Assembly (NCBI GenBank): GCA_027489175.1
Contig: JAIYAE010000023.1
Span: forward strand, 1 to 64,000
DNA length: 64,000 nucleotides
From: Rhodobacter sp.
GTDB lineage: Bacteria > Pseudomonadota > Alphaproteobacteria > Rhodobacterales > Rhodobacteraceae
Reading direction: 5' to 3'
A program made the translations under genes and the position numbers. The notes beneath the pieces were generated by a model that had not been told where the DNA came from, did not search any database, and was given only the letters and a program-made list of their open reading frames with translations. Shown here piece by piece: positions 51,299 to 64,000 of this stretch (position 1 is the first letter of the stretch; every line of letters begins with the position of its first letter).

Positions 51299-53329
51299 TC
51301 AGACCTGCCGCACAAGGCGCAGCGCATCATAAATCGCGGCATGGGTGTTGCGCGCTGCCACCGCATCGCCGATCCGGTAGAGCGCAAAGCCAGCACCAGC
51401 AGGCTGTGGGTGCCCGGCCACCAGTGCCTCGTGATCCAAGGCGCCAAGATTGGCTGACAAGGGTTTGAGATCAAAGTAGATATCGGCCAAGGGCTGGGTG
51501 CCGTGGTTCACGACGATCTGGTCATAATCGGCCGTCCGGGTCTGGCTGCCGTAGTCGGTGCCGATCACCGCGCGCAGGCGGTTTCCGGCGCGCTCTGCCG
51601 CCAGAAGCCGCCACATTACGGTAAAGGTCACGTCGCGCGCCTGCATGGCCCGCACATAAGGCACAAGGTTCATCCCCATGACATCAGGCGCAAAGGTCCG
51701 GTCGGGGGTCATCACCTCGACCTTGGCCCCGCTGTCGGCCAGCATCTGCGCCGCCTGCATCGCCACATGGTCGCCCGCATCGTCAAAGAGAAGGACATTT
51801 GCGCCCGGCTTGACGTCGCCCGAGAGGATGTCCCAGGCGGTGACCACAAGGTCATTACCCTCGCGCAGCACATCGCGGGTTGGCAGGCCACCGGTGGCGA
51901 CGACAACGACATCCGGCTTTTCTGACAGGATGTCAGAAGCTTCCGCGAAGGTATTGAAGTGAAATTCCACCCCATGCCGCGCGCATTGCGCGATGCGCCA
52001 GTCGATGATCCCGATCATCTCGCGGCGACGGACGCTGCGGGCCGTCAACAAGACCTGCCCACCGGGCTGGGCAGCGGCCTCGAACACCACCACGCTGTGT
52101 CCGCGTTCGCCTGCCACGCGCGCGGCCTCCAGCCCCGCAGGGCCGGCCCCCACGATCACCACTTTCTTCGCAACCGGTGCCGGGGGGATGGCATGCGGCT
52201 GTTCGCCCTCGCGCCCGGTGGAGGGGTTGTGGATGCACAGCGCCATGCCGCCTTGGTAAATGCGGTCGAGGCAGTAGGTGGCCCCCACACAAGGACGGAT
52301 CGTATCCTCTTGGCCTGCCAAGATTTTCTGCACGATGTGCGGGTCAGCCATATGGGCGCGGGTCATGCCGACCATGTCCAGCCGCCCTGTTGCCACGGCA
52401 TGCCGGGCGGTTGCCACATCGGGGATGCGGGCGGCGTGAAAGGTCGGCAGACCGCTGGCCGCGCGCACCTGGCCGGCATAGTCCAGATGCGGGGCAGACG
52501 GCATGCCCTGGACCGGAATCACCCCGGTCAATGCAGCATCGGTATGGATCCGCCCCCGGATCACGTTCAGGAAATCCACGAGGCCCGAGGCGTTGAAGCG
52601 GCGGGCCATGTCCAGCCCATCCTCCGCCGGGATGCCGCCATCCTCCATCTCATCGCCAACAAAGCGCAGGCCCAGCAGGAACCCCGGCCCCACCCGGTCA
52701 CGGCAGGCCTGCAGCACCTCCATCGTGAAGCGCAGGCGGTTTTCCAGCGTCGTGGCATCATAGGGGCCGGGGGGCATGCCGTTCGTCAGCGGGCTGATGA
52801 ACTGGTCCATCAAATGGCCATAGCATTCAAACTCTACCCCATCGAGGCCCGCCGCCTGCATCCGTTCAGCCGCGTCGGCGTAGTCCTTGATAATGCGAGA
52901 GATATCCCAGTCTTCAATGATCTTCGGAAAAGCCCGGTGTGCGGGTTCACGGCTTGGGCCAGCGCCTAGAACCGGCAGCCAATCCCCTTTGTCCCAGCGG
53001 GTGCGGCGGCCAAGGTGGCTGATCTGGATCATCACCGCTGCCCCCGCCTCATGGCAGTCATCGGCCAGGCGGCGCATCCATGGCACCACCTCATCCTTCC
53101 AGACCAACACATTGCCAAAGGCGGGCGGGCTGTCGCGCGACACGCTTGCCGACCCCGCCGTCATCACCATGGCGACGCCGCCCTTCGCCCGTTCAAGGTG
53201 GTAAAGACGGTAGCGGTCCTTGGGCATCCCATCGTCGGTGTAGGCCGGTTCGTGGCTGGTGGTCATGATCCGGTTGCGCAGGGTCAGATGCTTCAGCTGA
53301 TAGGGCTGGAGAAGCGGATCGGATGACAT
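51299..53329 (-). CDS. NADH:flavin oxidoreductase / N-methylproline demethylase-like FeS flavoenzyme
   Basis: A 676-residue two-part enzyme of the 2,4-dienoyl-CoA reductase / trimethylamine dehydrogenase group. Residues 1-370 are an Old Yellow Enzyme barrel with FMN; a Cys-rich segment (CVGATYCLDR, ALCIHNP) binds a 4Fe-4S cluster; the rest has an FAD/NADH Rossmann region (VVIVGAGPAGLEAARVAGER). The size and the motif order resemble N-methylproline (stachydrine pathway) demethylases, but other demethylase or enoate reductase roles are possible. GAGG precedes the ATG at 53329. Divergent from tetR. Confidence 0.83.
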   Translation of the reverse strand: MSSDPLLQPYQLKHLTLRNRIMTTSHEPAYTDDGMPKDRYRLYHLERAKGGVAMVMTAGSASVSRDSPPAFGNVLVWKDEVVPWMRRLADDCHEAGAAVMIQISHLGRRTRWDKGDWLPVLGAGPSREPAHRAFPKIIEDWDISRIIKDYADAAERMQAAGLDGVEFECYGHLMDQFISPLTNGMPPGPYDATTLENRLRFTMEVLQACRDRVGPGFLLGLRFVGDEMEDGGIPAEDGLDMARRFNASGLVDFLNVIRGRIHTDAALTGVIPVQGMPSAPHLDYAGQVRAASGLPTFHAARIPDVATARHAVATGRLDMVGMTRAHMADPHIVQKILAGQEDTIRPCVGATYCLDRIYQGGMALCIHNPSTGREGEQPHAIPPAPVAKKVVIVGAGPAGLEAARVAGERGHSVVVFEAAAQPGGQVLLTARSVRRREMIGIIDWRIAQCARHGVEFHFNTFAEASDILSEKPDVVVVATGGLPTRDVLREGNDLVVTAWDILSGDVKPGANVLLFDDAGDHVAMQAAQMLADSGAKVEVMTPDRTFAPDVMGMNLVPYVRAMQARDVTFTVMWRLLAAERAGNRLRAVIGTDYGSQTRTADYDQIVVNHGTQPLADIYFDLKPLSANLGALDHEALVAGHPQPAGAGFALYRIGDAVAARNTHAAIYDALRLVRQV

Positions 53330-53389
53330 GGCGGCCTCATGGTCGGACAGGGGCAGGGTAGCGGGCGCTCTGACCCCTCTCAAGAAAAA

Positions 53390-53405
53390 TCGACATATGT
53401 GTCGA
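53390..53405. promoter_or_regulatory. candidate TetR operator
   Basis: TCGACA-TATG-TGTCGA, a perfect 6-bp inverted repeat in the 122-base gap between the flavoenzyme gene and the divergent tetR gene, 47 bases before the tetR start. Confidence 0.5.
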
Positions 53406-53451
53406 GTTTCCGGCATTGTGCGGGACAGGGGCGCAAGGCTAGGCTTTCGGG

Positions 53452-54120
53452 ATGAGCAGGGACCGGACAGAGCGGGGGTGGCGCGGCACGCCGGAGGGGT
53501 GGCTGGATGCGGCCTATGATCTTCTGGTGGAAAGCGGTGTCGACGCGGTCAAGGTGATGCCGCTTGCGCAGCGGCTGGGGCTGTCGCGCACCAGTTTCTA
53601 CTGGCATTTCGCCGATCGTGAGGCGCTTTTGGCCGGGCTGGTGGCGCGGTGGCGGGCGCAGAACACCGGCAACCTTGTGGCCCGCTGTGAGGCCCCGGCC
53701 ACGACGATTGCCGAGGCGATGCTGAACCTGATCGACTGCTGGGTTGACCCGCAGCTTTTTGACAGCCGGTTGGAATTTGCCATGCGGACCTGGGCCTTGA
53801 CCGACCCCGGGGTCGATGCCGCGCTGGTTGAGGCGGACGCGCAGCGGCTGGCGGCGATTACCGCGCTCTTCCAGCGTTTCGGCTATGGCGCGACCGAGGC
53901 CGATACCCGGGCACGGACGCTGTATCTGACGCAGGTCGGCTATATCGCCTTGCGCTCGGACGAAAGTTTTGCGGTGCGGATGGGGCGGATCCCGGCCTAT
54001 GTGCTGACGTTTTCCGGTGTGGCCCCGTCAGAGGCCGAGGTCGCGGCATTCCGCGCCCGGCATCTGGTCAGGTCAGACGGGCAAGCAGGGCCAGAAGATG
54101 CGCTTGTTCGGCAGGGGTAA
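53452..54120 (+). CDS. TetR-family regulator
   Basis: A 222-residue TetR-type repressor. The N-terminal helix-turn-helix includes GVDAVKVMPLAQRLGLSRTS and FYWHFADREALL. The C-terminal ligand domain is not recognised. It is divergent from the flavoenzyme gene, with a palindrome between, so it probably controls that gene. Its 3' end overlaps the converging marR gene by 53 bases. Confidence 0.88.
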   Translation: MSRDRTERGWRGTPEGWLDAAYDLLVESGVDAVKVMPLAQRLGLSRTSFYWHFADREALLAGLVARWRAQNTGNLVARCEAPATTIAEAMLNLIDCWVDPQLFDSRLEFAMRTWALTDPGVDAALVEADAQRLAAITALFQRFGYGATEADTRARTLYLTQVGYIALRSDESFAVRMGRIPAYVLTFSGVAPSEAEVAAFRARHLVRSDGQAGPEDALVRQG

Positions 54121-54490
54121 GCGGGGCCAGCGTCTCGGCCGAGACCGCCAGCGCCGTTGCAGTGCGGGCAGAGAACAGGGCCGCCCCGCTGTCGGTCAGG
54201 GTGACGGTCAGGCGGCGGCGGTCTTCGGGGTCGGCAGCGGTGGCGGCGTAGCCAAGGCGCACCAGCCGGTCCACCACGCCCTTGATCGTGGCCGCATCCA
54301 TGGCCGTCGCGCGGCCAAGCTGGTTTTGCGACATGGGGCCGACCTCGGCCAGCCGGGCAAGGACGGCGAACTGGGTGGTCGTGACCTCGGGGATCTGGGC
54401 GGCAAAGATTGCCAAATGCCGCTGCGTCACACGGCGCAGGACATAGCCGATCTGGTCATCAAGGCTGTAAGGTTTGGGTGTGTCACTCAT
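54068..54490 (-). CDS. MarR-family regulator
   Basis: A 140-residue winged-helix regulator. VTTTQFAVLARLAEVGPMSQ, LGRATAMDAATIKGVVDRL and the wing DPEDRRRLTVTLTDSG are standard MarR. The ATG at 54490 has AAGG upstream; an earlier ATG at 54568 would overlap the operator-like repeat. Divergent from the molybdenum hydroxylase operon, which it likely controls in response to the operon's substrate. Confidence 0.88.
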   Translation of the reverse strand: MSDTPKPYSLDDQIGYVLRRVTQRHLAIFAAQIPEVTTTQFAVLARLAEVGPMSQNQLGRATAMDAATIKGVVDRLVRLGYAATAADPEDRRRLTVTLTDSGAALFSARTATALAVSAETLAPLTPAEQAHLLALLARLT

Positions 54491-54558
54491 CGCCTTGCGA
54501 TACGCGCTGGACCGCAGGCGCGCAAGACGGTTGACAGGGGCAGGCTTGGGTCGCAAAC

Positions 54559-54572
54559 TTGTTATCATACAA
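54559..54572. promoter_or_regulatory. candidate MarR operator
   Basis: TTGT-TATCAT-ACAA, an inverted repeat of the MarR type, between the divergent marR gene and the hydroxylase operon. Confidence 0.5.
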
Positions 54573-54596
54573 ACGAAATGCCGGGATGAACCGCCC

Positions 54597-55445
54597 GTGA
54601 CACTGCCTTTGACCCAGCAAGCCTATGCCCGGCCTGACAGCTTGCCACAGGCGCTTGGCCTGCTGGCAGAGGGGGGCTGGCGGGTGCTGGCCGGGGGAAC
54701 GGACCTTTACCCCGGGGCCGGGGCGCAACTGGCGGGGCCGGTGCTGGACCTGACGGGTCTGGCCGGGTTTGCCGGGATCAGCGCCGACGGGCAGGGGCTG
54801 CGGATCGGGGCGGGCACGACCTGGGCGACCCTCGCCGATGCTGCGGTGCCGGATGCCCTTCGCGCCTTGCAGCAGGCGGCGCGGCAGGTGGGGGGGCGGC
54901 AGGTGCAGGTGGCGGGCACGATTGGCGGCAACCTCTGCAACGCTTCACCCGCCGCCGATGGGGTGCCGCCGCTTCTTGCGCTTGGCGCGGAGGTAGAGCT
55001 TGCCTCGGCCACCGGCCTGCGTCGACTGCCCTTGCAGGACTTCCTGCGCGGCCCGCGCCAGACCGCCCTGCAACCGGGCGAGGTGATGACCGCGGTGTGG
55101 ATCCCGGCCACGGGTCTGCAGGGGCGGTCGGCCTTTGAAAAGCTGGGCGCGCGGCGGCATCTGGTGATTTCCATCGCCATGGTTGCGGCGCGGCTTGTGG
55201 TTGCCAAGGGGCGGCTGGTCGATGTGGCCATCGCCGCAGGTTCCTGTTCCGCCGTGGCGACCCGTCTGCCGCTGGTTGAGGCCGCGCTGACCGGGGCGCT
55301 GGTGGATCAAGCGCCGGACCGGATTCGCGCGGCAGACGTCAACGCCGCCCTGTCGCCGATTGACGACGTCCGGGCCAGTGCGGACTATCGCGCCCATGCC
55401 GCTACCGAACTGGTCCGCCGCGCCCTGGCCGGGGCGCTGGCATGA
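54597..55445 (+). CDS. molybdenum hydroxylase FAD subunit
   Basis: A 282-residue FAD-binding subunit of the xanthine dehydrogenase / CO dehydrogenase family. AGGTDLYPG and TIGGNLCNASPAAD are the two FAD motifs. The likely start is GTG at 54597 with GGGATGA upstream; an earlier in-frame ATG overlaps the marR side. It overlaps the next gene in ATGA. It should pass electrons from the FeS/Mo subunit to NAD or another acceptor. Confidence 0.9.
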   Translation: MTLPLTQQAYARPDSLPQALGLLAEGGWRVLAGGTDLYPGAGAQLAGPVLDLTGLAGFAGISADGQGLRIGAGTTWATLADAAVPDALRALQQAARQVGGRQVQVAGTIGGNLCNASPAADGVPPLLALGAEVELASATGLRRLPLQDFLRGPRQTALQPGEVMTAVWIPATGLQGRSAFEKLGARRHLVISIAMVAARLVVAKGRLVDVAIAAGSCSAVATRLPLVEAALTGALVDQAPDRIRAADVNAALSPIDDVRASADYRAHAATELVRRALAGALA

Positions 55446-58111
55446 TCGCCTTCACCCTGAACGGCAGCCCCGCCCAGACCGACGCCCCCCCGACCGAACG
55501 GCTGTCCGAGACCCTGCGTGAACGCCTTGGGCTGGTTGGCACCAAGGTCGGCTGCGACGCGGGCGATTGCGGGGCTTGCACCGTTCTGCTGGATGGTGAG
55601 GCCATCTGCGCCTGCCTGACCCCCGCCGCGCGGGTAGCGGGGCGCCAAGTCACGACAATTGAAGGGACGACCCCCGAACTCACCCGCCTGCGCGCCGCCT
55701 TTCTGGCCGAAGGGGCGGCGCAATGCGGCATCTGTACGCCCGGAATGCTGTTGACGGCGGCCGAGCTTTTGACCCTCACCCCCGAGCCTTCCGCCGAGCA
55801 GGTGGAGGAGGCGCTTGGCGGCGTCCTCTGCCGCTGCACCGGTTATCGCAGCATCATCGCGGCCGTGGTCGCGGCCGGGCGGGGCAGCACGACCCCGGTC
55901 ACCGAAGGGCCGGTCGGCGCGGCAGTGCAGCGCCTGGACGGCGCGGCCAAGGTGGCGGGCGACAGCTTTGGCGCGGACGTGTGGCCTGCTGGCGCGCTGG
56001 TGGTCAAGGCGGTCCGCTCACCGCATCCGCATGCCGAGTTCCAGATCGGCGATCTTGCCGCCTTCCGCGCGCAGCCCGGCGTTGTGGCCGTCTTGGCCGC
56101 TGCGGATATCCCCGGTCGCAATGCGTTCTCCGTCATTCCACCCTTTGCCGATCAACCCGCCATCGCCACGTCTCCTGCCCGGTTCCGGGGCGAATGCGTG
56201 GCGTTGGTCGCGTTTGACCCCGGTTCCGACCCTGACCTGACAAAGTTTCCCATCACCTGGACCGTGCTGCCCGCGCTTTCCTCACCAGAGGAGGCCGAGA
56301 CCGGCCCCCTGATCCACGCCACCCGCCCGGGCAACCTTCTGGTCGAAGGCCGCGTGGTCAAAGGCGATGCCGCCGCCGCGCTGTCCCGCAGCGCCCATGT
56401 CGTGGAAGGCTGCATGACCACCGCCTTCGTCGAACACGCCTATATCGAGCCTGAGGCCGGTGTCGCCTGGCTGGAGGGCGATACCCTGGTGATCCGTGCC
56501 TGCACCCAAGCCCCCGGGATGGACCGTGAAGACACTGCCCGCATCCTCCGTCTGCCCATCGACCGGGTCAGGATCATCCCCTCGGCTGTCGGTGGGGGGT
56601 TCGGCTCAAAGCTGGACCTCTCGCTCCAGCCGCTGATCGGGCTGGTGACGCTGAAGACCGGGCGGCCCTGCCGGATGACTTACAGCCGCGGCGAAAGCAT
56701 GACCTCTACCACCAAGCGCCACCCGGCTGAGATGTCGGGCCGCATCGGCTGCGATGCCAGTGGCCGGATCACGGGGGTGGAGTTTACCGGGCGTTTCAAC
56801 ACCGGCGCCTATTCCAGCTGGGGGCCAACGGTGGCGAACCGGGTTCCGGTCCATGTCTCGGGCCCCTATCTGACGCCAGCGATCACTGCCAAGGCGAGGG
56901 CAATCCATACCCACGGGCCGGTGTCGGGCGCGTTCCGGGGCTTTGGCGTGCCGCAAGGGGCGCTGTGGCAGGAAACGCTGTATGACCGGCTGGCCGACAA
57001 GGCCGGGATCGACCGGCTGGAGTTTCGCATACTGAACGCCTTGGCGGACGGTGATGCCAGCGCCACCGGGCAGGTTCTGCGCGCCGTGGGCATCCGCGAT
57101 TGCCTGACCGCGCTCAAGCCGCATTGGACCCGTGCGCTGCGGGACGCCGCAAGCCAGCCGGGTCGCGGAGTGGGGGTTGCCGCCTGCTGGTACGGCTGCG
57201 GCAACACCGCGCTGCCGAACCCCTCGACCATCCGCATTGGCCTGTCGCCTGACGGTGCGGTGGTCCTGCACCAAGGGGCGACCGATATTGGCCAAGGCTC
57301 CAACACCGTCATCGCCCAGATCGCGGCCGAGGCGTTGGGTCTGCCCTTGCAGGCTTTCCGGCTGATCGGCCCGGATACCGCCTTGACTCCGGATGCAGGC
57401 AAGACCTCGGCCAGCCGACAGACCTTCGTCACCGGGCGCGCCGCGAAGGCCGCTGCCGAAGCCTTGCGGGCCGAGGTTTTGCGCCGCGCCAATGCCGGGC
57501 AGGGGGCACGGCTGACGTTAGAGAGGACCTGCGTCGTCGTCCGCGATACGGGCATTGTCACCCGGATCGACCTTGCCGCGCTGCCCCCAGACGCGCAGGG
57601 CCATGCGCTGACGGCCGAAGCGACCTACGACCCTCCGACCTCGCCCCTGGATGGGGACGGGCAGGGCACGCCCTATGCCCTTTACGGCTATGGCGCGCAG
57701 ATGGTCGAACTGGCGGTGGATGCGGCCCTTGGGACGGTGAAGCTTATAAAGATCACCGCTGCGCATGACCTTGGCCAGGTCATCAACCCGACGCTGGCGC
57801 GTGGTCAGATCGAGGGGGGGATTGCCCAGGGCATCGGCCTTGCGCTGATGGAGGAATACCTGCCGGGCCGGACCGAGAACCTGCATGACTACCTGATCCC
57901 GACTTTCGGCGATGTGCCCCCCATCGAAAGCCTGCTGATCGAGGTGCCCGATCCTGAAGGCCCCTATGGCGCAAAGGGCCTGGGGGAACATGTGCTGATC
58001 CCGACCGCCCCCGCCATCCTGAACGCGATCCGCCATGCGACCGGCGCCACGATCACCTGGGTGCCGGCACTTCCGCACCGGGTGCTGGCTGCCATGGAGG
58101 GGCCGCAATGA
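55442..58111 (+). CDS. molybdenum hydroxylase, fused 2Fe-2S and molybdopterin subunit
   Basis: An 889-residue fusion of the small and large subunits of a xanthine-dehydrogenase-type enzyme, which hydroxylates N-heterocycles or aldehydes with water. Residues 1-80 have a plant-type 2Fe-2S site (Cys38, 43, 46, 58); 85-145 the second cluster (QCGICTPGM, VLCRCTGY); the remainder binds molybdopterin (GGGFGSKLDLSL, SGAFRGFGVPQ). KGLGEHVL near the end holds the catalytic Glu (usually GEPP). The substrate is unknown; the operon suggests an N-heterocycle. Confidence 0.9.
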   Translation: MIAFTLNGSPAQTDAPPTERLSETLRERLGLVGTKVGCDAGDCGACTVLLDGEAICACLTPAARVAGRQVTTIEGTTPELTRLRAAFLAEGAAQCGICTPGMLLTAAELLTLTPEPSAEQVEEALGGVLCRCTGYRSIIAAVVAAGRGSTTPVTEGPVGAAVQRLDGAAKVAGDSFGADVWPAGALVVKAVRSPHPHAEFQIGDLAAFRAQPGVVAVLAAADIPGRNAFSVIPPFADQPAIATSPARFRGECVALVAFDPGSDPDLTKFPITWTVLPALSSPEEAETGPLIHATRPGNLLVEGRVVKGDAAAALSRSAHVVEGCMTTAFVEHAYIEPEAGVAWLEGDTLVIRACTQAPGMDREDTARILRLPIDRVRIIPSAVGGGFGSKLDLSLQPLIGLVTLKTGRPCRMTYSRGESMTSTTKRHPAEMSGRIGCDASGRITGVEFTGRFNTGAYSSWGPTVANRVPVHVSGPYLTPAITAKARAIHTHGPVSGAFRGFGVPQGALWQETLYDRLADKAGIDRLEFRILNALADGDASATGQVLRAVGIRDCLTALKPHWTRALRDAASQPGRGVGVAACWYGCGNTALPNPSTIRIGLSPDGAVVLHQGATDIGQGSNTVIAQIAAEALGLPLQAFRLIGPDTALTPDAGKTSASRQTFVTGRAAKAAAEALRAEVLRRANAGQGARLTLERTCVVVRDTGIVTRIDLAALPPDAQGHALTAEATYDPPTSPLDGDGQGTPYALYGYGAQMVELAVDAALGTVKLIKITAAHDLGQVINPTLARGQIEGGIAQGIGLALMEEYLPGRTENLHDYLIPTFGDVPPIESLLIEVPDPEGPYGAKGLGEHVLIPTAPAILNAIRHATGATITWVPALPHRVLAAMEGPQ

Positions 58112-58133
58112 CCGCCTGCTACGGCTTTCATCT

Positions 58134-58181
58134 GTCCTCAAATATCCCGGGGGTCCGGGGGCTGGCCCCCGGTGGGTGGCC
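58134..58181 (+). repeat. dispersed repeat family B, copy 3, inside an operon
   Basis: CTCAAATATCCCGGGGGTCC followed by a CCGGGGGC/GCCCCCGG hairpin, between the Mo-hydroxylase stop and the next start at 58185. A 26-codon frame begins at 58108 (ATGA overlap) and reads through it. Confidence 0.65.
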
Positions 58182-58184
58182 CAG

Positions 58185-59621
58185 ATGACCGACACCCCCG
58201 AAAAGCTGCGCTGCGACGCCTGCCCGGTGATGTGCTACATCGCCCCGGGTCAGACCGGGGCCTGCGACCGTTATGCCAATGAGGGCGGAAAGATCGTGCG
58301 AACCGATCCCGTGGTGCTGCTGTCGCAAACGGTTGAGGCGGGTGGTCGCGTCGTGCCCTTTGCGGCGCGGGACTGGGATGGCACGCTCGTCCCGGCAGAT
58401 GCCGTGGTCACCGGGATCGGGTCGGGCACGACCTATCCCGACTACAAGCCCGCGCCTTTCATCATCGCCAGCAAGATCGATGGCGCCGATATGGTCACTG
58501 TCGTGACCGAGGCGATCTTTTCCTACGCGGGCGTCAAGGTGAAGATCGACACCGACCGTTTTCTTGGCCCGGAAGCTGCCGTGGTCCGGGTGGAGGGCGA
58601 GGCGATTGGCCATGTGACCACCGCCGAATACGGCAGCCAGATGCTGTCGCTTGGCGGGGTGCATCACCTGACAGGGGGCGAGAAGGCCGAAGGTCGGGTG
58701 ACCTGCGCCGCCCTGCTGGCGCTGTGCAACGGCGAGGCGGTCGAGATGACGATCGACGGCGGCAGCCGCGTGGTTGTGCAGGCAGGCGAGGCCCCCATCG
58801 TGGATGGCCAGCGCGAGCGGCGGATGCGCGTCGGCTGCGGGTCGGCCACCATCGGGATGTTCGCGGTGCAGTGGCAGGGGCTCGTTGATGAGGTGGTGGT
58901 GGTCGATGACCACATCACCGGCGTGGTCAGCGAACATCAGGCGGGCCGCGTGCTGGGCTGGCAACCGACGGGCATCAAGATCAAGGGCCACCGGTCAACC
59001 CCAGGGCGTTACTTCCGGGTTTCGGAACCGGGCCTCGGCTGGGGCGGCACGCGGCTGACCGACCCGCTGGACATCCTGGGGGATTGGAACCCGAAGAAGG
59101 GGGCAAGGCCGGGGCTGACGCTGCTCATGGTCTCTACCACGGGCGAAGATCACGGCTACTACGTTCTGGATGAGGCACTGCGCCCCGTGGCGCAGCCGCT
59201 GCCAGCCACCTTGCAAGCCAGCGTCGACCTGATTGCTGAAAACTGCGAGCCGTCGCTTTGTACCGTTCTGTTTATGGCCGGGGCGGGCGGGTCGCTGCGG
59301 GCCGGGGTGGCTAAGAACCCGGTGCGACTGACCCGGTCGGTGCAGGTGGGGGTGACGCGTCTGACCGCAGGCGGGGCGGAAACCTATGTCTGGCCGGGCG
59401 GTGGGATCACCTTCATGGTCGATGTAACGCGTCTGCCGCCCGGGGCCTTCGGCTATGTCCCGACACCTGCGCTGGTCGCGCCATTGGAGTTCACCTTGCC
59501 CCGTGCCGCCTATCTGGCCATGGGCGGGCATGAAGACAGCATCCGCTCGCTGGACGCCACAATGGCCGAAGGCGGCGAATACCCCATAGCCGCGCGGGTC
59601 CTGCCGTGGCCCGCCCAATGA
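58185..59621 (+). CDS. 6-hydroxynicotinate-reductase-like iron-sulfur protein
   Basis: A 478-residue protein resembling 6-hydroxynicotinate reductase. Residues Cys10, 13, 17 and 27 (C-x2-C-x3-C-x9-C in RCDACPVMCYIAPGQTGACD) look like a 4Fe-4S site. The middle has GGVHHLTGGEKAEGRVTCAAL and VGCGSATIGMFA. No signal peptide. The ATG at 58185 follows GGTGGGTGG; an upstream extension is repeat-derived. In the anaerobic nicotinate route the enzyme saturates the hydroxylated ring with ferredoxin; the substrate here is unknown. Confidence 0.8.
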   Translation: MTDTPEKLRCDACPVMCYIAPGQTGACDRYANEGGKIVRTDPVVLLSQTVEAGGRVVPFAARDWDGTLVPADAVVTGIGSGTTYPDYKPAPFIIASKIDGADMVTVVTEAIFSYAGVKVKIDTDRFLGPEAAVVRVEGEAIGHVTTAEYGSQMLSLGGVHHLTGGEKAEGRVTCAALLALCNGEAVEMTIDGGSRVVVQAGEAPIVDGQRERRMRVGCGSATIGMFAVQWQGLVDEVVVVDDHITGVVSEHQAGRVLGWQPTGIKIKGHRSTPGRYFRVSEPGLGWGGTRLTDPLDILGDWNPKKGARPGLTLLMVSTTGEDHGYYVLDEALRPVAQPLPATLQASVDLIAENCEPSLCTVLFMAGAGGSLRAGVAKNPVRLTRSVQVGVTRLTAGGAETYVWPGGGITFMVDVTRLPPGAFGYVPTPALVAPLEFTLPRAAYLAMGGHEDSIRSLDATMAEGGEYPIAARVLPWPAQ

Positions 59622-60586
59622 CCGGCGCGTTGCAAATGGAGCAGCCGCGCACGCGCGCGCGGCTGCACGAGCCTGTCTCGCCTCTGGCCGTTCCGGCCAA
59701 CCGGCTCGGGGTTGCCTCCGGCGGGCGTATTTTTGAAAAGAGCAAGTCGGTCGGTGGGGGATGGGCGGCGGCGGCGGCGGTTTTGCCGGATGGGCGGCTG
59801 CATCTGCAGCAAGGGCCGATCGACATTGTGGCTGAGGCTTTCGGTCCGGCAGAGGCCGTGGCGGCTGCCTATCACCGGGCGGTGCGGCGCTTTGCGACGG
59901 TGCTGGAGGAGTTGGTGGCGGAACTGCCGGCGCTGCGGTCGGAAGACCGGCCGCTGCAGGGGGAAATTGCTGTCGCCATGTCCGCCGCCGTGGCCCCGTT
60001 CCGACCGGCCTTCATCACCCCGATGGCCGCCGTGGCCGGGGCGGTGGCGGACCGGGTGGTCGCGGCCATGGCGGGGCCGGAGATCACCCACGCCTATGCC
60101 AACAACGGTGGCGACATCGCCCTGTTGCTTACGCCCGGGGCAGAGCTAACAGCGGCACTGGCGGTGACGGGCGGGCTTGACCGGGTGACCATTCGCGCGG
60201 CGGATGGGGTGCGCGGCATCGCCACCTCTGGCTGGCGGGGGCGCAGCTTCTCGCTTGGGATTGCCGATGCGGTGACGGTGCTTGCCCCAACGGCGGCGAT
60301 GGCGGATGCAGCGGCGACGATGATCGCCAATGCGGTCGATCTGCCCGGGCATGACGGCATCCGCCGCCGCCCGGCGCGCGACTGTCAGGCCGACAGTGAC
60401 CTGGGCGACCGTCTGGTCACGGTCGCGGTGGCCCCCTTGACCGCGTCGGACCGGGCCAGTGCCCTGGACCGGGGTCTGGCCGCCGCCGAAGGCTTTCTGG
60501 CAAGGCGGCTGATTGTCGGGGCCGCGCTTTACCTCCAGGGTGAGGCGCGGCTGACCGGCCGGATGAAAGAGGTGAGGCATGACTGA
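59618..60586 (+). CDS. UPF0280 (ApbE-superfamily) protein with a repeat-encoded N-terminal insert
   Basis: A 322-residue protein of the UPF0280 family, related in fold to ApbE flavin transferases. From about residue 52 it is normal: LPDGRLHLQQGPIDIVAEAFG, AMAGPEITHAYANNGGDIAL, AADGVRGIATSGWRGRSFSLG. The first 50 residues are unusual: a GC hairpin (59641-59666) and an in-frame copy of repeat family A encode part of them (GVASGGRIFEKSKS at about 33-46). It starts in an ATGA overlap with the previous gene. Function unknown; it may act on flavins. Confidence 0.82.
   Translation: MTGALQMEQPRTRARLHEPVSPLAVPANRLGVASGGRIFEKSKSVGGGWAAAAAVLPDGRLHLQQGPIDIVAEAFGPAEAVAAAYHRAVRRFATVLEELVAELPALRSEDRPLQGEIAVAMSAAVAPFRPAFITPMAAVAGAVADRVVAAMAGPEITHAYANNGGDIALLLTPGAELTAALAVTGGLDRVTIRAADGVRGIATSGWRGRSFSLGIADAVTVLAPTAAMADAAATMIANAVDLPGHDGIRRRPARDCQADSDLGDRLVTVAVAPLTASDRASALDRGLAAAEGFLARRLIVGAALYLQGEARLTGRMKEVRHD
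59708..59749 (-). repeat. dispersed repeat family A, copy 3, inside a coding region
   Basis: Reverse-oriented copy of the family A unit (GCCTCCGGCGGG, GTATTTTT, AAAAGAGCAA), translated in frame near the N-terminus of the UPF0280 protein. Confidence 0.75.
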
Positions 60587-61160
60587 ATTCACGCTGCGCA
60601 AAATCGTGCTGCAGATCGAGGAGATCCGGCACGAAGGCGGCCCTCCTGCCAGCCCGCCCCCCCTGCGGGGCGCCGTCTTTGCCATCTGCCGCAACCCATT
60701 TGCCGGGGCCTATGTCGCGGACCTGCAGCCCGCGATGGAGGCGCTGAAACCCCTCGCCCTTGACCTTACCGACCGTCTGGTCGCTGCCCTTGGTGGGCGG
60801 GATGGCATTGATGCCTATGGCAAGGGGGCCATCGTCGGTGAAGGCGGCGAAAGCGAACATGGCGCGCTGTGGCATGTGGCGGGTGGCTACGGGATGCGCG
60901 ACCGCTTGGGGGACTGCCGCGCCATTGTGCCATCGGCGATGAAGGTGGGCGGGATGGGGGCGACGCTCGACATCCCGATTGGCCATCTCAACGCGGCCTA
61001 TGTCCGGTCACGCTTTGACGTCATCACCGTCGCCTGCGCCGATGCCCCTCGTGCGGGGGAGGTCCTTTTCGCCCTTGCCATGGCACGGGGCGGGCGGGTC
61101 CACAGCCGGATGGGCGGGCTTGAGGTGGATCAGGTCACCGGCCTTGACGGGCTGCGCTAG
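60579..61160 (+). CDS. DUF1185 (amino acid synthesis) family protein
   Basis: A 193-residue DUF1185 protein. Family marks are FAICRNPFAGAYVADLQP, GKGAIVGEGGESEHGALWHV and MGATLDIPIGHLNAAYVRS. It overlaps the UPF0280 gene by eight bases and abuts the hydantoinase A gene. The reaction is not known; the association with the hydroxylase, reductase and hydantoinase genes suggests a step in the same catabolic route. Confidence 0.88.
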   Translation: MTEFTLRKIVLQIEEIRHEGGPPASPPPLRGAVFAICRNPFAGAYVADLQPAMEALKPLALDLTDRLVAALGGRDGIDAYGKGAIVGEGGESEHGALWHVAGGYGMRDRLGDCRAIVPSAMKVGGMGATLDIPIGHLNAAYVRSRFDVITVACADAPRAGEVLFALAMARGGRVHSRMGGLEVDQVTGLDGLR

Positions 61161-63191
61161 ATGGATCGCACAGCGACGGGTCTGGTCGCCGGGGTTGATG
61201 TCGGCGGCACTTTCACCGACCTTGTGATCCTTGATCCAACCTCGGGTGCGGTGCGGCTGGCCAAGGTGCCGACCACGCTGCCTAACCAGGCCGAGGGCGT
61301 GCTGAATGCCTTCGCGGCGGCAAAGGCGGACCTGTCAGAGATTGACCTGATCGTGCATGGCACGACCACCACCACCAATGCGGTCCTTGAACGCCAGCTC
61401 GCGCGGACCGGCATGATCACCACCCAAGGCTTCCGCGACGTGCTGGAGCTTGGCCGCCGCACCCGCCCGCAAGCTTACGGGATGCACGGCAGCTTCATCC
61501 CGGTCATCCCCCGGGACCTGCGGCTTGAGGTTCCGGAACGGATGGACGCGCGGGGCCAGGTGCTGACCCCCTTGGATGAGAGCGCGCTGGAGGCGGCTAT
61601 CGGCCAGCTGCTGGAGCAGGGCTGCGAAAGCCTGGTGATCCATTTCCTGCATGCCTATGCCAACCCCGCGCATGAACTTCGGGCAGGTGAGGTTGCGGCG
61701 CGCCTTTGGCCGAATGCGCATATCACCCTTGGCCATGCGCTTCTGTCGGAAAGCCGGGAATATGAGCGGGGGGTGACGGCGGCGGTAAACGCCTCGGTCC
61801 AGCCCTTGCTGGAGCGTTATGTATCTCGGCTGGCCGATCAACTGGCCGCCAAAGGCTACAGGCGCGACCTTCTGGTGATGAACGGCAATGGCGGGATGGT
61901 CACCGCCCGCGATGTCGGGCGTGAGGCGGTCAAGACCGTGATGTCGGGCCCCGCCTCGGGCGTGATGGCGGCGGTGGCCACCGGGCGGCGGGCCGGGATG
62001 CTGGACCTTCTGACCTATGACATGGGGGGCACCAGCACGGATGTGGCGATGATCCGGGGCGGGGTGGCGCCGGTGTCGAACGAGATCGAGGTCGAATATG
62101 CCATGCCGATCCATGTGCCGATGGTCGATGTGCGTACTGTCGGGGCAGGGGGTGGCAGCATCGCACGGGTGGATGCGGGCGGCATGCTGCGGGTCGGGCC
62201 GGAAAGCGCTGGCTCTTATCCCGGGCCAGTCTGCTATGGCCGGGGGGGGACGCGCGTAACCAATTCGGACGCAAACCTGATCCTGGGGCGATTGCCCGCC
62301 AGCCGCTTCGGTCAGGCGGCCGACGCAGCGCGGCAGGCGATGGCCGACCAGATCGGCACGCCGCTTGGTCTGTCGGTTGAGGCTGCCGCCGAAGCGGTGA
62401 TCCGCATCGCCAATACCCATATGGCCGGGGCGACCCGCATGGTCTCAATCTCGCTGGGCGCTGACCCGCGCGACTTTGCGCTGTTCGCCTTTGGGGGCGC
62501 GGGGCCGTTGCATGCCGTGGCTTTGGCGCGCGAGTTGAACGTGCCGAAGGTGCTGATCCCGGCGCGCCCCGGCATCACCAATGCGCTGGGCTGTGTAGTG
62601 GCCGACCTGCGTCATGATTTCGTGCGCACGCTGAACCGCCCGCTGGACGCGGTGGACATGGATGAGGTGCACGCCATTCTGGCCGGGCAAGAGGCTTCCG
62701 GTCGTCGCCTTGTTGGCGCCGAACGGATCGCCCTGCAGGGCACAAGTGCCGTCTTTTCCGCCGACATGCAGTTCGTCGGCCAGACCCACCTCTTGCGCGT
62801 GCCACTCGCGACCTCCACCCCCAGCCGCGCCGATCTGCAGGCGGGGTTTGAGGCCGCCTATCACGCGCGGTTCCGGGTCGACCTGCCGACGATCCGGGCC
62901 AATCTGGTGAACCTGAACTGTTCGGTGATCGGAGAACGCCCGGCCTTTGACCTGTCGCGCCTGATTGATCCCGCTGACCGCAAGCCAAAGGCCGCGCCCT
63001 CAACCACCCGCCCGGTCTGGTTCGGCCAATGGATCGATACCCCGGTCTACTGGCGCGATCACCTGCCGCTGGACCTTCACCTGCAAGGCCCGGCGATCAT
63101 TGAACAAATGGATACCACCAGTGTGATTGATCCCGGCTGCACCGTCACGTCTGATGCGGATGGCAATCTGATCGTCGAGGTGTCGTCATGA
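61161..63191 (+). CDS. hydantoinase A / 5-oxoprolinase-type subunit
   Basis: A 676-residue subunit of the HyuA/oxoprolinase family, ATP-dependent cyclic-amide hydrolases. GVDVGGTFTDLVILD at the N-terminus is the nucleotide-binding motif, HGTTTTTNAVLER follows, and DMGGTSTDVAMIRGG and FGGAGPLHAVALARELNV are later marks. The ATG directly follows the DUF1185 stop. With HyuB it should hydrolyse a lactam or imide; the ring may be the product of the upstream reductase. Confidence 0.92.
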   Translation: MDRTATGLVAGVDVGGTFTDLVILDPTSGAVRLAKVPTTLPNQAEGVLNAFAAAKADLSEIDLIVHGTTTTTNAVLERQLARTGMITTQGFRDVLELGRRTRPQAYGMHGSFIPVIPRDLRLEVPERMDARGQVLTPLDESALEAAIGQLLEQGCESLVIHFLHAYANPAHELRAGEVAARLWPNAHITLGHALLSESREYERGVTAAVNASVQPLLERYVSRLADQLAAKGYRRDLLVMNGNGGMVTARDVGREAVKTVMSGPASGVMAAVATGRRAGMLDLLTYDMGGTSTDVAMIRGGVAPVSNEIEVEYAMPIHVPMVDVRTVGAGGGSIARVDAGGMLRVGPESAGSYPGPVCYGRGGTRVTNSDANLILGRLPASRFGQAADAARQAMADQIGTPLGLSVEAAAEAVIRIANTHMAGATRMVSISLGADPRDFALFAFGGAGPLHAVALARELNVPKVLIPARPGITNALGCVVADLRHDFVRTLNRPLDAVDMDEVHAILAGQEASGRRLVGAERIALQGTSAVFSADMQFVGQTHLLRVPLATSTPSRADLQAGFEAAYHARFRVDLPTIRANLVNLNCSVIGERPAFDLSRLIDPADRKPKAAPSTTRPVWFGQWIDTPVYWRDHLPLDLHLQGPAIIEQMDTTSVIDPGCTVTSDADGNLIVEVSS

Positions 63192-64000
63192 TCGACCCCG
63201 TCACCCTTGCCGTCATTCAGGCCGGCCTCCAGCAGGTCTGCGACGAGATGGACCTGACCTTTTCCCGCGCGGCCTTTTCCCCGGTGATCGCCGAGGCCGA
63301 TGACCGGTCGGATGGCATCTATGCCGCCGATGATGGCAGCCTGATCGCTCAAGGCGCAAAGGGCTTGCCGGTCTTTGTTGGCGTGATGCAGTTTTCCACC
63401 CGCACCATCCTTGACCGTATCGCCAAAGGCCTGACCGCCCCACCCGAGCCGGGCGACATCTACATCGTCAACGACCCCTACCTTGGCGGCACGCATCTGA
63501 TGGACGTGCGCTTTGCCATGCCGGTCTGGCGCGATGGGCGCATCTTCTGCTGGCTGTCCAACACTGGCCACTGGCCTGATACCGGCGGCGCGGTGCCCGG
63601 CGGCTTCAGCGCCAGCGCGATCAGCGCCGAACAGGAGGGGCTGCGCCTGCCGCCCGTGAAGCTGTTCAAGAAAGGTGTGCTCGATACCGAGATCTACCAG
63701 ATCATCTGCTCCAACATCCGGGTATCGGAACAACGGATCGGCGATGTAAAGGCGCAGGCTTCGGCGCTTCTGGTCGGGGCAGACCGGCTGGCGGCCCTTC
63801 TTGACCGCTACGGCGATGCCACGGTGACCGAAGCCATCGCCGCCATGCGGGCGCTTGCGGCTCAGCAGATGCGGGCGCTGATCGGGCTGATCCCGCCCGG
63901 CACCTATAACAGTGCCGCGATTGTGGACAGCGACGGCGTGGTCAACCAGCCGCTGACCATCGCCCTTGCCGTCACCACCACTCCCGAAGGGCTGATCTTC
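63188..64000 (+). CDS. hydantoinase B / 5-oxoprolinase-type subunit, N-terminal part (cut by window edge)
   Basis: The first 271 codons of a HyuB-type subunit, starting in an ATGA overlap with the A subunit. MIDPVTLAVIQAGLQQVCDE, IYIVNDPYLGGTHLMDVRF and WLSNTGHWPDTGG are typical. It runs off the window. Confidence 0.92.
   Translation, partial: MIDPVTLAVIQAGLQQVCDEMDLTFSRAAFSPVIAEADDRSDGIYAADDGSLIAQGAKGLPVFVGVMQFSTRTILDRIAKGLTAPPEPGDIYIVNDPYLGGTHLMDVRFAMPVWRDGRIFCWLSNTGHWPDTGGAVPGGFSASAISAEQEGLRLPPVKLFKKGVLDTEIYQIICSNIRVSEQRIGDVKAQASALLVGADRLAALLDRYGDATVTEAIAAMRALAAQQMRALIGLIPPGTYNSAAIVDSDGVVNQPLTIALAVTTTPEGLIF

Follow-up and report, generated by a model that had tools for sequence, protein, structure and literature searches.

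The last part of a 64,000-nucleotide stretch of DNA from Rhodobacter sp. (contig JAIYAE010000023.1 of GenBank assembly GCA_027489175.1, positions 1 to 64,000; the window in what follows) carries an operon of seven genes on one strand (+), running from 54597 to 64867, all in frame and with the last gene ending past the window. The genes encode a two-subunit molybdenum hydroxylase, a protein resembling 6-hydroxynicotinate reductase (Hnr), members of the families UPF0280 and DUF1185, and the two subunits of a hydantoinase/oxoprolinase-type enzyme, HyuA and HyuB. An earlier note on this DNA had described such an operon together with a divergent MarR gene and a MarR-type operator, and all the operon genes that it named were found, on the + strand and in frame. 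Gene content, gene co-occurrence, the near-exclusive distribution of two ring-opening enzymes, the kinship of UPF0280 with ApbE and the ligand residues of MarR are the sequence-based evidence from which we infer every reaction given here. On this evidence the locus is quite probably a MarR-regulated operon for the aerobic breakdown of nicotinate by ring reduction, in which HyuAB would open the ring with ATP. Its features are as follows.

54597-55445, + strand: FAD subunit of a molybdenum hydroxylase, probably nicotinate dehydrogenase (Pfam FAD_binding_5, CO_deh_flav_C); the GTG start was picked by reading the sequence
55442-58111, + strand: fused 2Fe-2S/molybdopterin subunit of the same probable nicotinate dehydrogenase (Pfam Fer2, Fer2_2, MoCoBD_1, MoCoBD_2)
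58185-59621, + strand: Hnr, 6-hydroxynicotinate reductase-like (alignments A1 and A3; names of plasmid homologues)
59606-60586, + strand: open reading frame of UPF0280, an ApbE homologue (NF003322); start uncertain, conserved part from about 59768
60579-61160, + strand: DUF1185/AA_synth protein of the TgnF family (PF06684; PDB 3byq, 2qtp)
61161-63191, + strand: HyuA, ATP-binding subunit of a proposed lactamase for 1,4,5,6-tetrahydro-6-oxonicotinate, THON (Pfam Hydantoinase_A, Hydant_A_N)
63188-64867 on the contig, + strand, the window stopping at 64000: HyuB, metal-site subunit (Pfam Hydantoinase_B)
54068-54490, - strand: divergent MarR-family regulator (PF12802/PF01047); frame open to 54568, start at 54490 likely, by reading
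54531-54536, + strand: TTGACA, candidate -35 box of the operon promoter, read from the sequence
54559-54572, no strand assigned: candidate operator TTGTTATCATACAA, of the form TTGT-N6-ACAA, behind TTGACA, read from the sequence

The Hnr family and its route

Nicotinate breakdown by reduction of 6-hydroxynicotinate is described for Eubacterium barkeri, Azorhizobium caulinodans and clusters of Bradyrhizobiaceae (PMC3511419). The same source places nicotinate clusters with Hnr in Azorhizobium, Bradyrhizobium, Rhodopseudomonas and the Bradyrhizobiaceae strain SG-6C, whose Hnr is 42% identical to that of E. barkeri, and describes conserved proteins of unknown function beside Hnr. Neither the pathway nor Hnr is thus new, nor is the occurrence of unknown genes next to Hnr, and the label "uncharacterised" does not hold for the pathway.

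Neither Pfam nor NCBIfam recognises the window's Hnr-like protein at E 0.001, and most of its annotated plasmid homologues bear the name 6-hydroxynicotinate reductase. Cysteines 10, 13, 17 and 27 are invariant in alignments A1 and A3. A search of the PDB with the Hnr profile (hmmsearch) returned no match at E 1, and Foldseek with the Hnr model (predicted local distance difference test score, pLDDT, 76) found no fold match, the best hit being at E 0.28. By these profile, fold and family scans, Hnr is a conserved enzyme family without a known structural relative.

One scan yielded at least 591 stretches encoding an Hnr relative. Among the best 80 of these the E. barkeri and Azorhizobium loci do not figure; the 80 come from Alphaproteobacteria or unplaced Pseudomonadota records, with many Rhodobacter-type bacteria and Mesorhizobium. 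The 100 Hnr loci (L053-L152) include one duplicate, leaving 99 distinct loci, and their neighbouring genes were assigned by marker searches, as a first clustering had split the Hnr family. If the reading given here is right, this large set of clusters can be read as vitamin B3 catabolism. In two genomes (G213:C1:2969820-2971252 and G399:C2:210117-211589) the Hnr match falls in two pieces, and the gene may be broken or misassembled there.

Nicotinate as the likely substrate

The likely substrate of the operon is nicotinate, degraded by way of 6-hydroxynicotinate and THON. In the proposed sequence of steps, the molybdenum hydroxylase, made up of the FAD and the fused FeS/Mo subunits, would turn nicotinate into 6-hydroxynicotinate, and Hnr, as an iron-sulfur enzyme, would reduce this to THON. 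The order of hydroxylation, ring reduction and ATP-driven opening of the lactam, which the earlier note had set out, is supported. The outcome that the note had named as refuting its reading, genes scattered in relatives with no co-occurrence, did not arise: the operon genes do co-occur. The substrate, said in that note to be not evident, with nicotinate as only one option, now appears fairly evident.

Three markers of nicotinate metabolism occur among related Hnr loci: nicotinamidase, NicAB-type genes and enamidase. Nicotinamidase lies beside Hnr in 28 of the 99 distinct loci; the copy in L148 was identified by NF008623 (217 bits against a cut-off of 174) and its relatives by tblastn. A Neorhizobium cluster (L184) contains nicA, nicB, a ferredoxin reductase, an ABC transporter, MarR, hnr, UPF0280, two DUF1185 genes, hyuA and hyuB, and its NicB combines Mo-binding domains with a C-terminal cytochrome c domain. 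A similar cluster from Paracoccaceae (L186) has a gene named nicR; all three nic gene names were given by the depositors. Either kind of first-step enzyme, XDH-type or NicAB-type, is found with either ring opener, enamidase or HyuAB, which gives four pairings (window, L065, L184, L066/L185). The window's cluster shares with the nicotinate clusters that use 6-hydroxynicotinate reduction the Mo hydroxylase, Hnr and the conserved proteins of unknown function. It differs in having a fused Mo hydroxylase of XDH type instead of the NicAB-type genes of other clusters, HyuAB instead of enamidase, and no counterpart of the ABC transporter common to many of its relatives. Purines, pyrimidines and hydantoins were rejected as substrates on gene content, as relatives carry nicotinamidase, NicAB-type genes or enamidase.

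Some observations pull the other way. Aldehyde oxidoreductases are the best PDB matches of the Mo subunit, and nicotinate dehydrogenase (3hrd) also ranks behind 4-hydroxybenzoyl-CoA reductase; the sequence of the subunit alone does not indicate nicotinate, and we therefore took its substrate from context. No transporter fitting the pathway was seen among the genes after HyuB, and the binding protein usual in related clusters (SBP1) has no orthologue in the window's genome, the best match being 32% over 99 amino acids. The earlier note had looked to the sequence past 64000 for a transporter and further enzymes; the end of HyuB was found there, at 64867, but the genes that follow lie on the opposite strand and look RND-efflux-like (judged by reading open reading frames, without a library scan), so that the operon ends after HyuB without a transporter.

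With a Mo subunit that is not diagnostic and a cluster that has neither transporter nor nicotinamidase, the operon might instead degrade another hydroxypyridine or pyridine carboxylate by the same reduce-and-open chemistry, applied to a compound related to 6-hydroxynicotinate. One such compound is 6-chloronicotinate, which a Bradyrhizobiaceae strain channels into the same route (PMC3511419). We regard this as improbable: the window's Hnr is 83-86% identical to that of usual-order clusters in nearby genera, it falls on one tree with clusters bearing NicAB, nicotinamidase or enamidase, and the MarR pocket is conserved.

Probable replacement of enamidase by HyuAB

In the route through THON, the ring is opened by enamidase, which converts 6-oxo-1,4,5,6-tetrahydronicotinate (THON) to 2-formylglutarate (PMC7356986, PMC9304392). 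The amidohydrolase of related Hnr clusters matches the E. barkeri enamidase (2vun) at E 7e-109. In the window's genome (94% complete) no enamidase was found at E 1e-60, and HyuAB is present instead.

This alternation extends across the Hnr carriers. A family sample of 198 genomes contains 79 with Hnr, of which 35 have enamidase only, 41 a HyuA orthologue only, 3 neither and none both. A phylum sample of 398 genomes adds 30 more with Hnr: 15 with enamidase only, 13 with HyuA only and 2 with both, none lacking both. Combined, the 109 Hnr genomes comprise 50 with enamidase only, 54 with HyuA only, 2 with both and 3 with neither. Enamidase was counted at E <= 1e-60, which takes in G109 (50% identity, counted as enamidase) and G048 (46%, no Hnr). 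HyuA orthologues were counted at E <= 1e-190 in the family sample and from 60% identity upwards in the second sample, a limit set after seeing a gap between 60% and 50%, with matches of 44-47% dropped. Hnr trees were built with 88 and 95 labelled rows, duplicates and rows without known enamidase or HyuA being left out; on the 95-row tree the enamidase label needs at least three changes, also when well-supported branches alone are considered. A HyuA orthologue without Hnr occurs in one family genome, G022, where the DUF1185 match begins 163 bases from a contig end. The link between HyuA and Hnr does not reflect operon proximity only: 16 of the 41 HyuA genomes in the family sample have the two on different contigs, albeit with some fragmented assemblies among them.

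HyuA carries the ATP motifs DVGGTFTD, DMGGTSTD and GSYPGP, and in HyuB the residues Asp42, His103, Asp106 and His128 stand in motifs resembling the metal-ligand motifs of CapB (both by motif search, with no formal CapB alignment). Lactam opening at the cost of ATP is known from caprolactamase and its relatives, and the metal-ligand residues are essential in caprolactamase (PMC8453981). With the CapAB, 5-oxoprolinase and N-methylhydantoinase enzymes treated in that source, HyuAB shares the two-subunit architecture and the ATP and metal-ligand motifs; it differs in falling below the caprolactamase cut-off and in its proposed substrate, a six-membered enamide acid.

Because of the near-exclusive distribution in 109 Hnr genomes and the three or more exchanges, HyuAB is most likely an ATP-dependent THON lactamase that stands in for enamidase. 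It would activate the THON lactam with ATP and open the ring, in place of the ATP-free enamidase of other Hnr carriers. The swap appears to be new, as we found no earlier report of it in the open-licence literature; if true, it clearly illustrates how a single pathway step can be taken by an amidohydrolase without ATP or, alternatively, by an ATP-driven lactamase.

Several points count against the replacement. The 109 genomes represent few exchanges (at least three changes on the tree) and not 109 independent cases, so that a Fisher test of the pattern overstates the exclusivity. G318 and G387 carry both enzymes, and three Hnr genomes have neither: G014 (stops in Hnr), G029 (a 44% HyuA relative) and G147 (73% complete), which were searched again with the second sample but counted once. 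HyuA reaches 472 bits with the caprolactamase model NF050156 against a cut-off of 1000, and by that model it is not a caprolactamase. It is also conceivable that HyuAB acts on a later or side metabolite while another hydrolase opens THON in HyuAB genomes. The separation of HyuA from the Hnr contig in those 16 genomes would fit this, as would the coupling of ring opening to deamination by enamidase (PMC9304392), which makes the swap not one-for-one. The one-or-other pattern is nevertheless nearly complete across three exchanges, and opening lactams with ATP is what caprolactamase and its relatives do (PMC8453981), and we therefore consider this alternative unlikely.

A separate observation concerns G048, where the enamidase relative adjoins a DUF1185 gene (L166:6881-8699); this pair perhaps belongs to another enamide-opening pathway.

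UPF0280, an ApbE homologue tied to Hnr

The UPF0280 protein scores 346.9 bits with NF003322 (cut-off 290), and the family follows Hnr closely. Of the 398 genomes in the phylum sample, 32 have a UPF0280 match over the family cut-off, and these are precisely the Hnr carriers; two more have weak matches below it. In the family sample 78 genomes have both (of 79 with Hnr); the exceptions are G008, with Hnr only (a partial Hnr), and G155, with UPF0280 only (a partial match at a contig start). UPF0280 stands directly 3′ of Hnr in 94 of the 97 distinct loci that have both. Two outlying loci are Acidisphaera sp. L21 (L111), with Hnr and no UPF0280 within its 21-kb locus, and SAR116 (L113), in which UPF0280 is divergent (33% identical).

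An AlphaFold2 model of UPF0280 (pLDDT 88) matched DVU1097 (2o34) in Foldseek at E 7e-9, followed by ApbE-type flavin transferases at E 4e-4 to 6e-2, with the next match at E 0.35. Local alignment by hhalign with a profile of 16 ApbE proteins (those of 25 ApbE loci that passed a motif filter) gave P 1.4e-6 over 109 columns; negative controls with Hnr, DUF1185 and MarR alignments gave P 0.09 to 0.2, and the global mode gave no signal (P 0.77). The aligned motifs are GGD/GGE, ATSG and ADAAAT, and the presumed equivalents of ApbE Ser241 and Asp285, matched through ATSG and ADxxxT, are invariant in UPF0280 (S198 and D224 of alignment A2).

UPF0280 is thus a homologue of ApbE, but it fails the tests for an ordinary ApbE. 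The loop that carries the catalytic histidine, His257 in Vibrio cholerae ApbE (PMC12052999), is missing from the UPF0280 alignment. The target motif DxxSGAT occurs in none of 158 Hnr rows, and a bare [ST]GA[ST] in 9. No Pfam family matches the protein at E 0.001, and PF02424 (ApbE) finds nothing in the window's genome. Compared with the flavin transferases of PMC12052999, UPF0280 shares the fold and the ATSG, ADxxxT and GGD motifs; it lacks a PF02424 match, the His257-type loop, DxxSGAT in its proposed target and any export sign in the sequence as read, no signal-peptide tool being used. Canonical ApbE-type flavinylation of Hnr was rejected, since both the target motif in Hnr and the histidine loop in UPF0280 are absent.

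The Hnr of E. barkeri holds a covalent flavin. As an ApbE homologue without the catalytic-histidine loop, UPF0280 is likely to be a flavin-handling partner of Hnr, which would supply or hold the flavin that Hnr needs. For this part of the reading a strong competitor exists, to which we give somewhat less than an even chance: rather than loading flavin, UPF0280 could itself form part of Hnr as a subunit, structural or catalytic, such as one that binds FAD. In favour of a subunit are the strict co-occurrence and adjacency, and the combination of an ApbE fold, which binds FAD, with the absence of the catalytic-histidine loop and of a canonical target motif in Hnr. Sub-cut-off relatives in the methanogens Methanocaldococcus jannaschii and Methanosarcina acetivorans (in which Hnr was not searched) speak against it. 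Either way, the family is no longer the blank that "no assigned reaction" had implied: its kinship is seen with Foldseek and hhalign, and its role, still inferred, would become testable in flavin supply to Hnr if the partner role is true. The ApbE kinship and the strict tie to Hnr are new as far as the open-licence literature shows.

DUF1185 and its possible role on the ring-opening product

The DUF1185 protein matches PF06684 at 212 bits (against 27). The family occurs in 72 of the 79 Hnr genomes and in 44 of the 119 other family genomes, and is therefore tied to Hnr more loosely than UPF0280. We read 20 neighbourhoods from the 44 genomes with DUF1185 and without Hnr. A luciferase-type monooxygenase and an aldehyde dehydrogenase are common to 17 of them, and most of these also have an alpha/beta hydrolase and a flavin reductase (neighbours grouped by BLAST, and identified by Pfam and NCBIfam for L172). 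We take this gene set to resemble the cluster for trigonelline (N-methylnicotinate). UPF0280 strictly accompanies Hnr; DUF1185 is found in addition in these trigonelline-like clusters.

TgnF of trigonelline catabolism is a homologue of the DUF1185 protein HcdD, for which attempts to see an effect failed according to PMC7913881; structures of the family exist (PMC2954203). The window's protein shares with TgnF and HcdD, of trigonelline and 7-hydroxycoumarin breakdown, membership of PF06684 in a ring-cleavage pathway; its partner genes differ, and the HcdD effect could not be shown (PMC7913881). DUF1185 still has no assigned reaction, as the earlier note had said, but it does belong to the TgnF family of trigonelline catabolism (PMC7913881).

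If HyuAB did no more than open the ring and the deaminase were DUF1185, DUF1185 should be commoner with HyuAB than with enamidase, and the counts, which tell against such a function, show otherwise. A PF06684 match is absent in 4 of 41 HyuA genomes (G110, G113, G143 and G162, the last possibly an assembly gap, as its UPF0280 match stops near a contig start) and in 2 of 35 enamidase genomes (G008, G132). An essential deaminase of the HyuAB branch was rejected on the absences in those four HyuA genomes. Our guess is a helper role on the ring-opening product: DUF1185 would not always be required, and might help the enamine or formyl acid that arises from ring opening to hydrolyse or tautomerise faster. 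If true, the family gains a testable role on the ring-opening products of nicotinate and trigonelline.

A bolder combination can be put forward as a speculation that we doubt as a whole. UPF0280 would be a non-canonical ApbE branch that flavinylates or loads Hnr at a new site without a histidine base, DUF1185 would act on 2-(aminomethylene)/2-formyl dicarboxylates common to nicotinate and trigonelline breakdown, and HyuAB would represent a new ATP-dependent enamide lactamase specificity.

One locus, L171 (G091), has a window-like DUF1185 and the cluster's ABC transporter genes in a genome with no Hnr or UPF0280 match, and is a decayed or cut-off cluster.

The MarR regulator and its operator

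PDB matches of the MarR protein include 2nnn (129 bits) and BpsR (6pcp/6pco, 93 bits). BpsR binds 6-hydroxynicotinate through Tyr15, His23, Arg26 and His32 (PMC6837509). The window's MarR shares with BpsR the MarR family and the equivalents of Tyr15, Arg26 and His32; the ligand set is incomplete, three of four, as His23 is replaced by Tyr. The Tyr/Arg/His pattern occurs in 69 of 71 MarR loci, and the place of His23 is variable, being Phe or Tyr in most relatives (Phe 47, Tyr 19, His 3). The protein is likely a 6-hydroxynicotinate-sensing repressor, judging from these residues, and 6-hydroxynicotinate would free the operon from it.

TTGACA is present in all 37 MarR/FAD intergenic regions compared (the window and 36 relatives), and the exact TTGT-N6-ACAA in 15 of them, against a mean of 0.03-0.06 in mononucleotide shuffles; the 37 regions are related and are not independent observations.

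Variation around the cluster

In most close relatives (e.g. L073-L092), a branched-chain amino acid-type ABC transporter and a 448-amino-acid protein lie between DUF1185 and HyuA. This insert, which would fall near 61160, is absent in the window, L054, L055 and L090. For the 448-amino-acid protein (L080:12835-14178), neither Pfam nor NCBIfam gave a match within the limits applied.

Adjoining the MarR gene in the window are genes for a 705-amino-acid old-yellow-enzyme-type reductase (51299-53416, - strand) and a TetR protein (53452-54120, + strand). Among 93 other distinct loci of 9 kb or longer, 13 have the reductase close to the Hnr cluster, all of them from close relatives; it might belong to the pathway.

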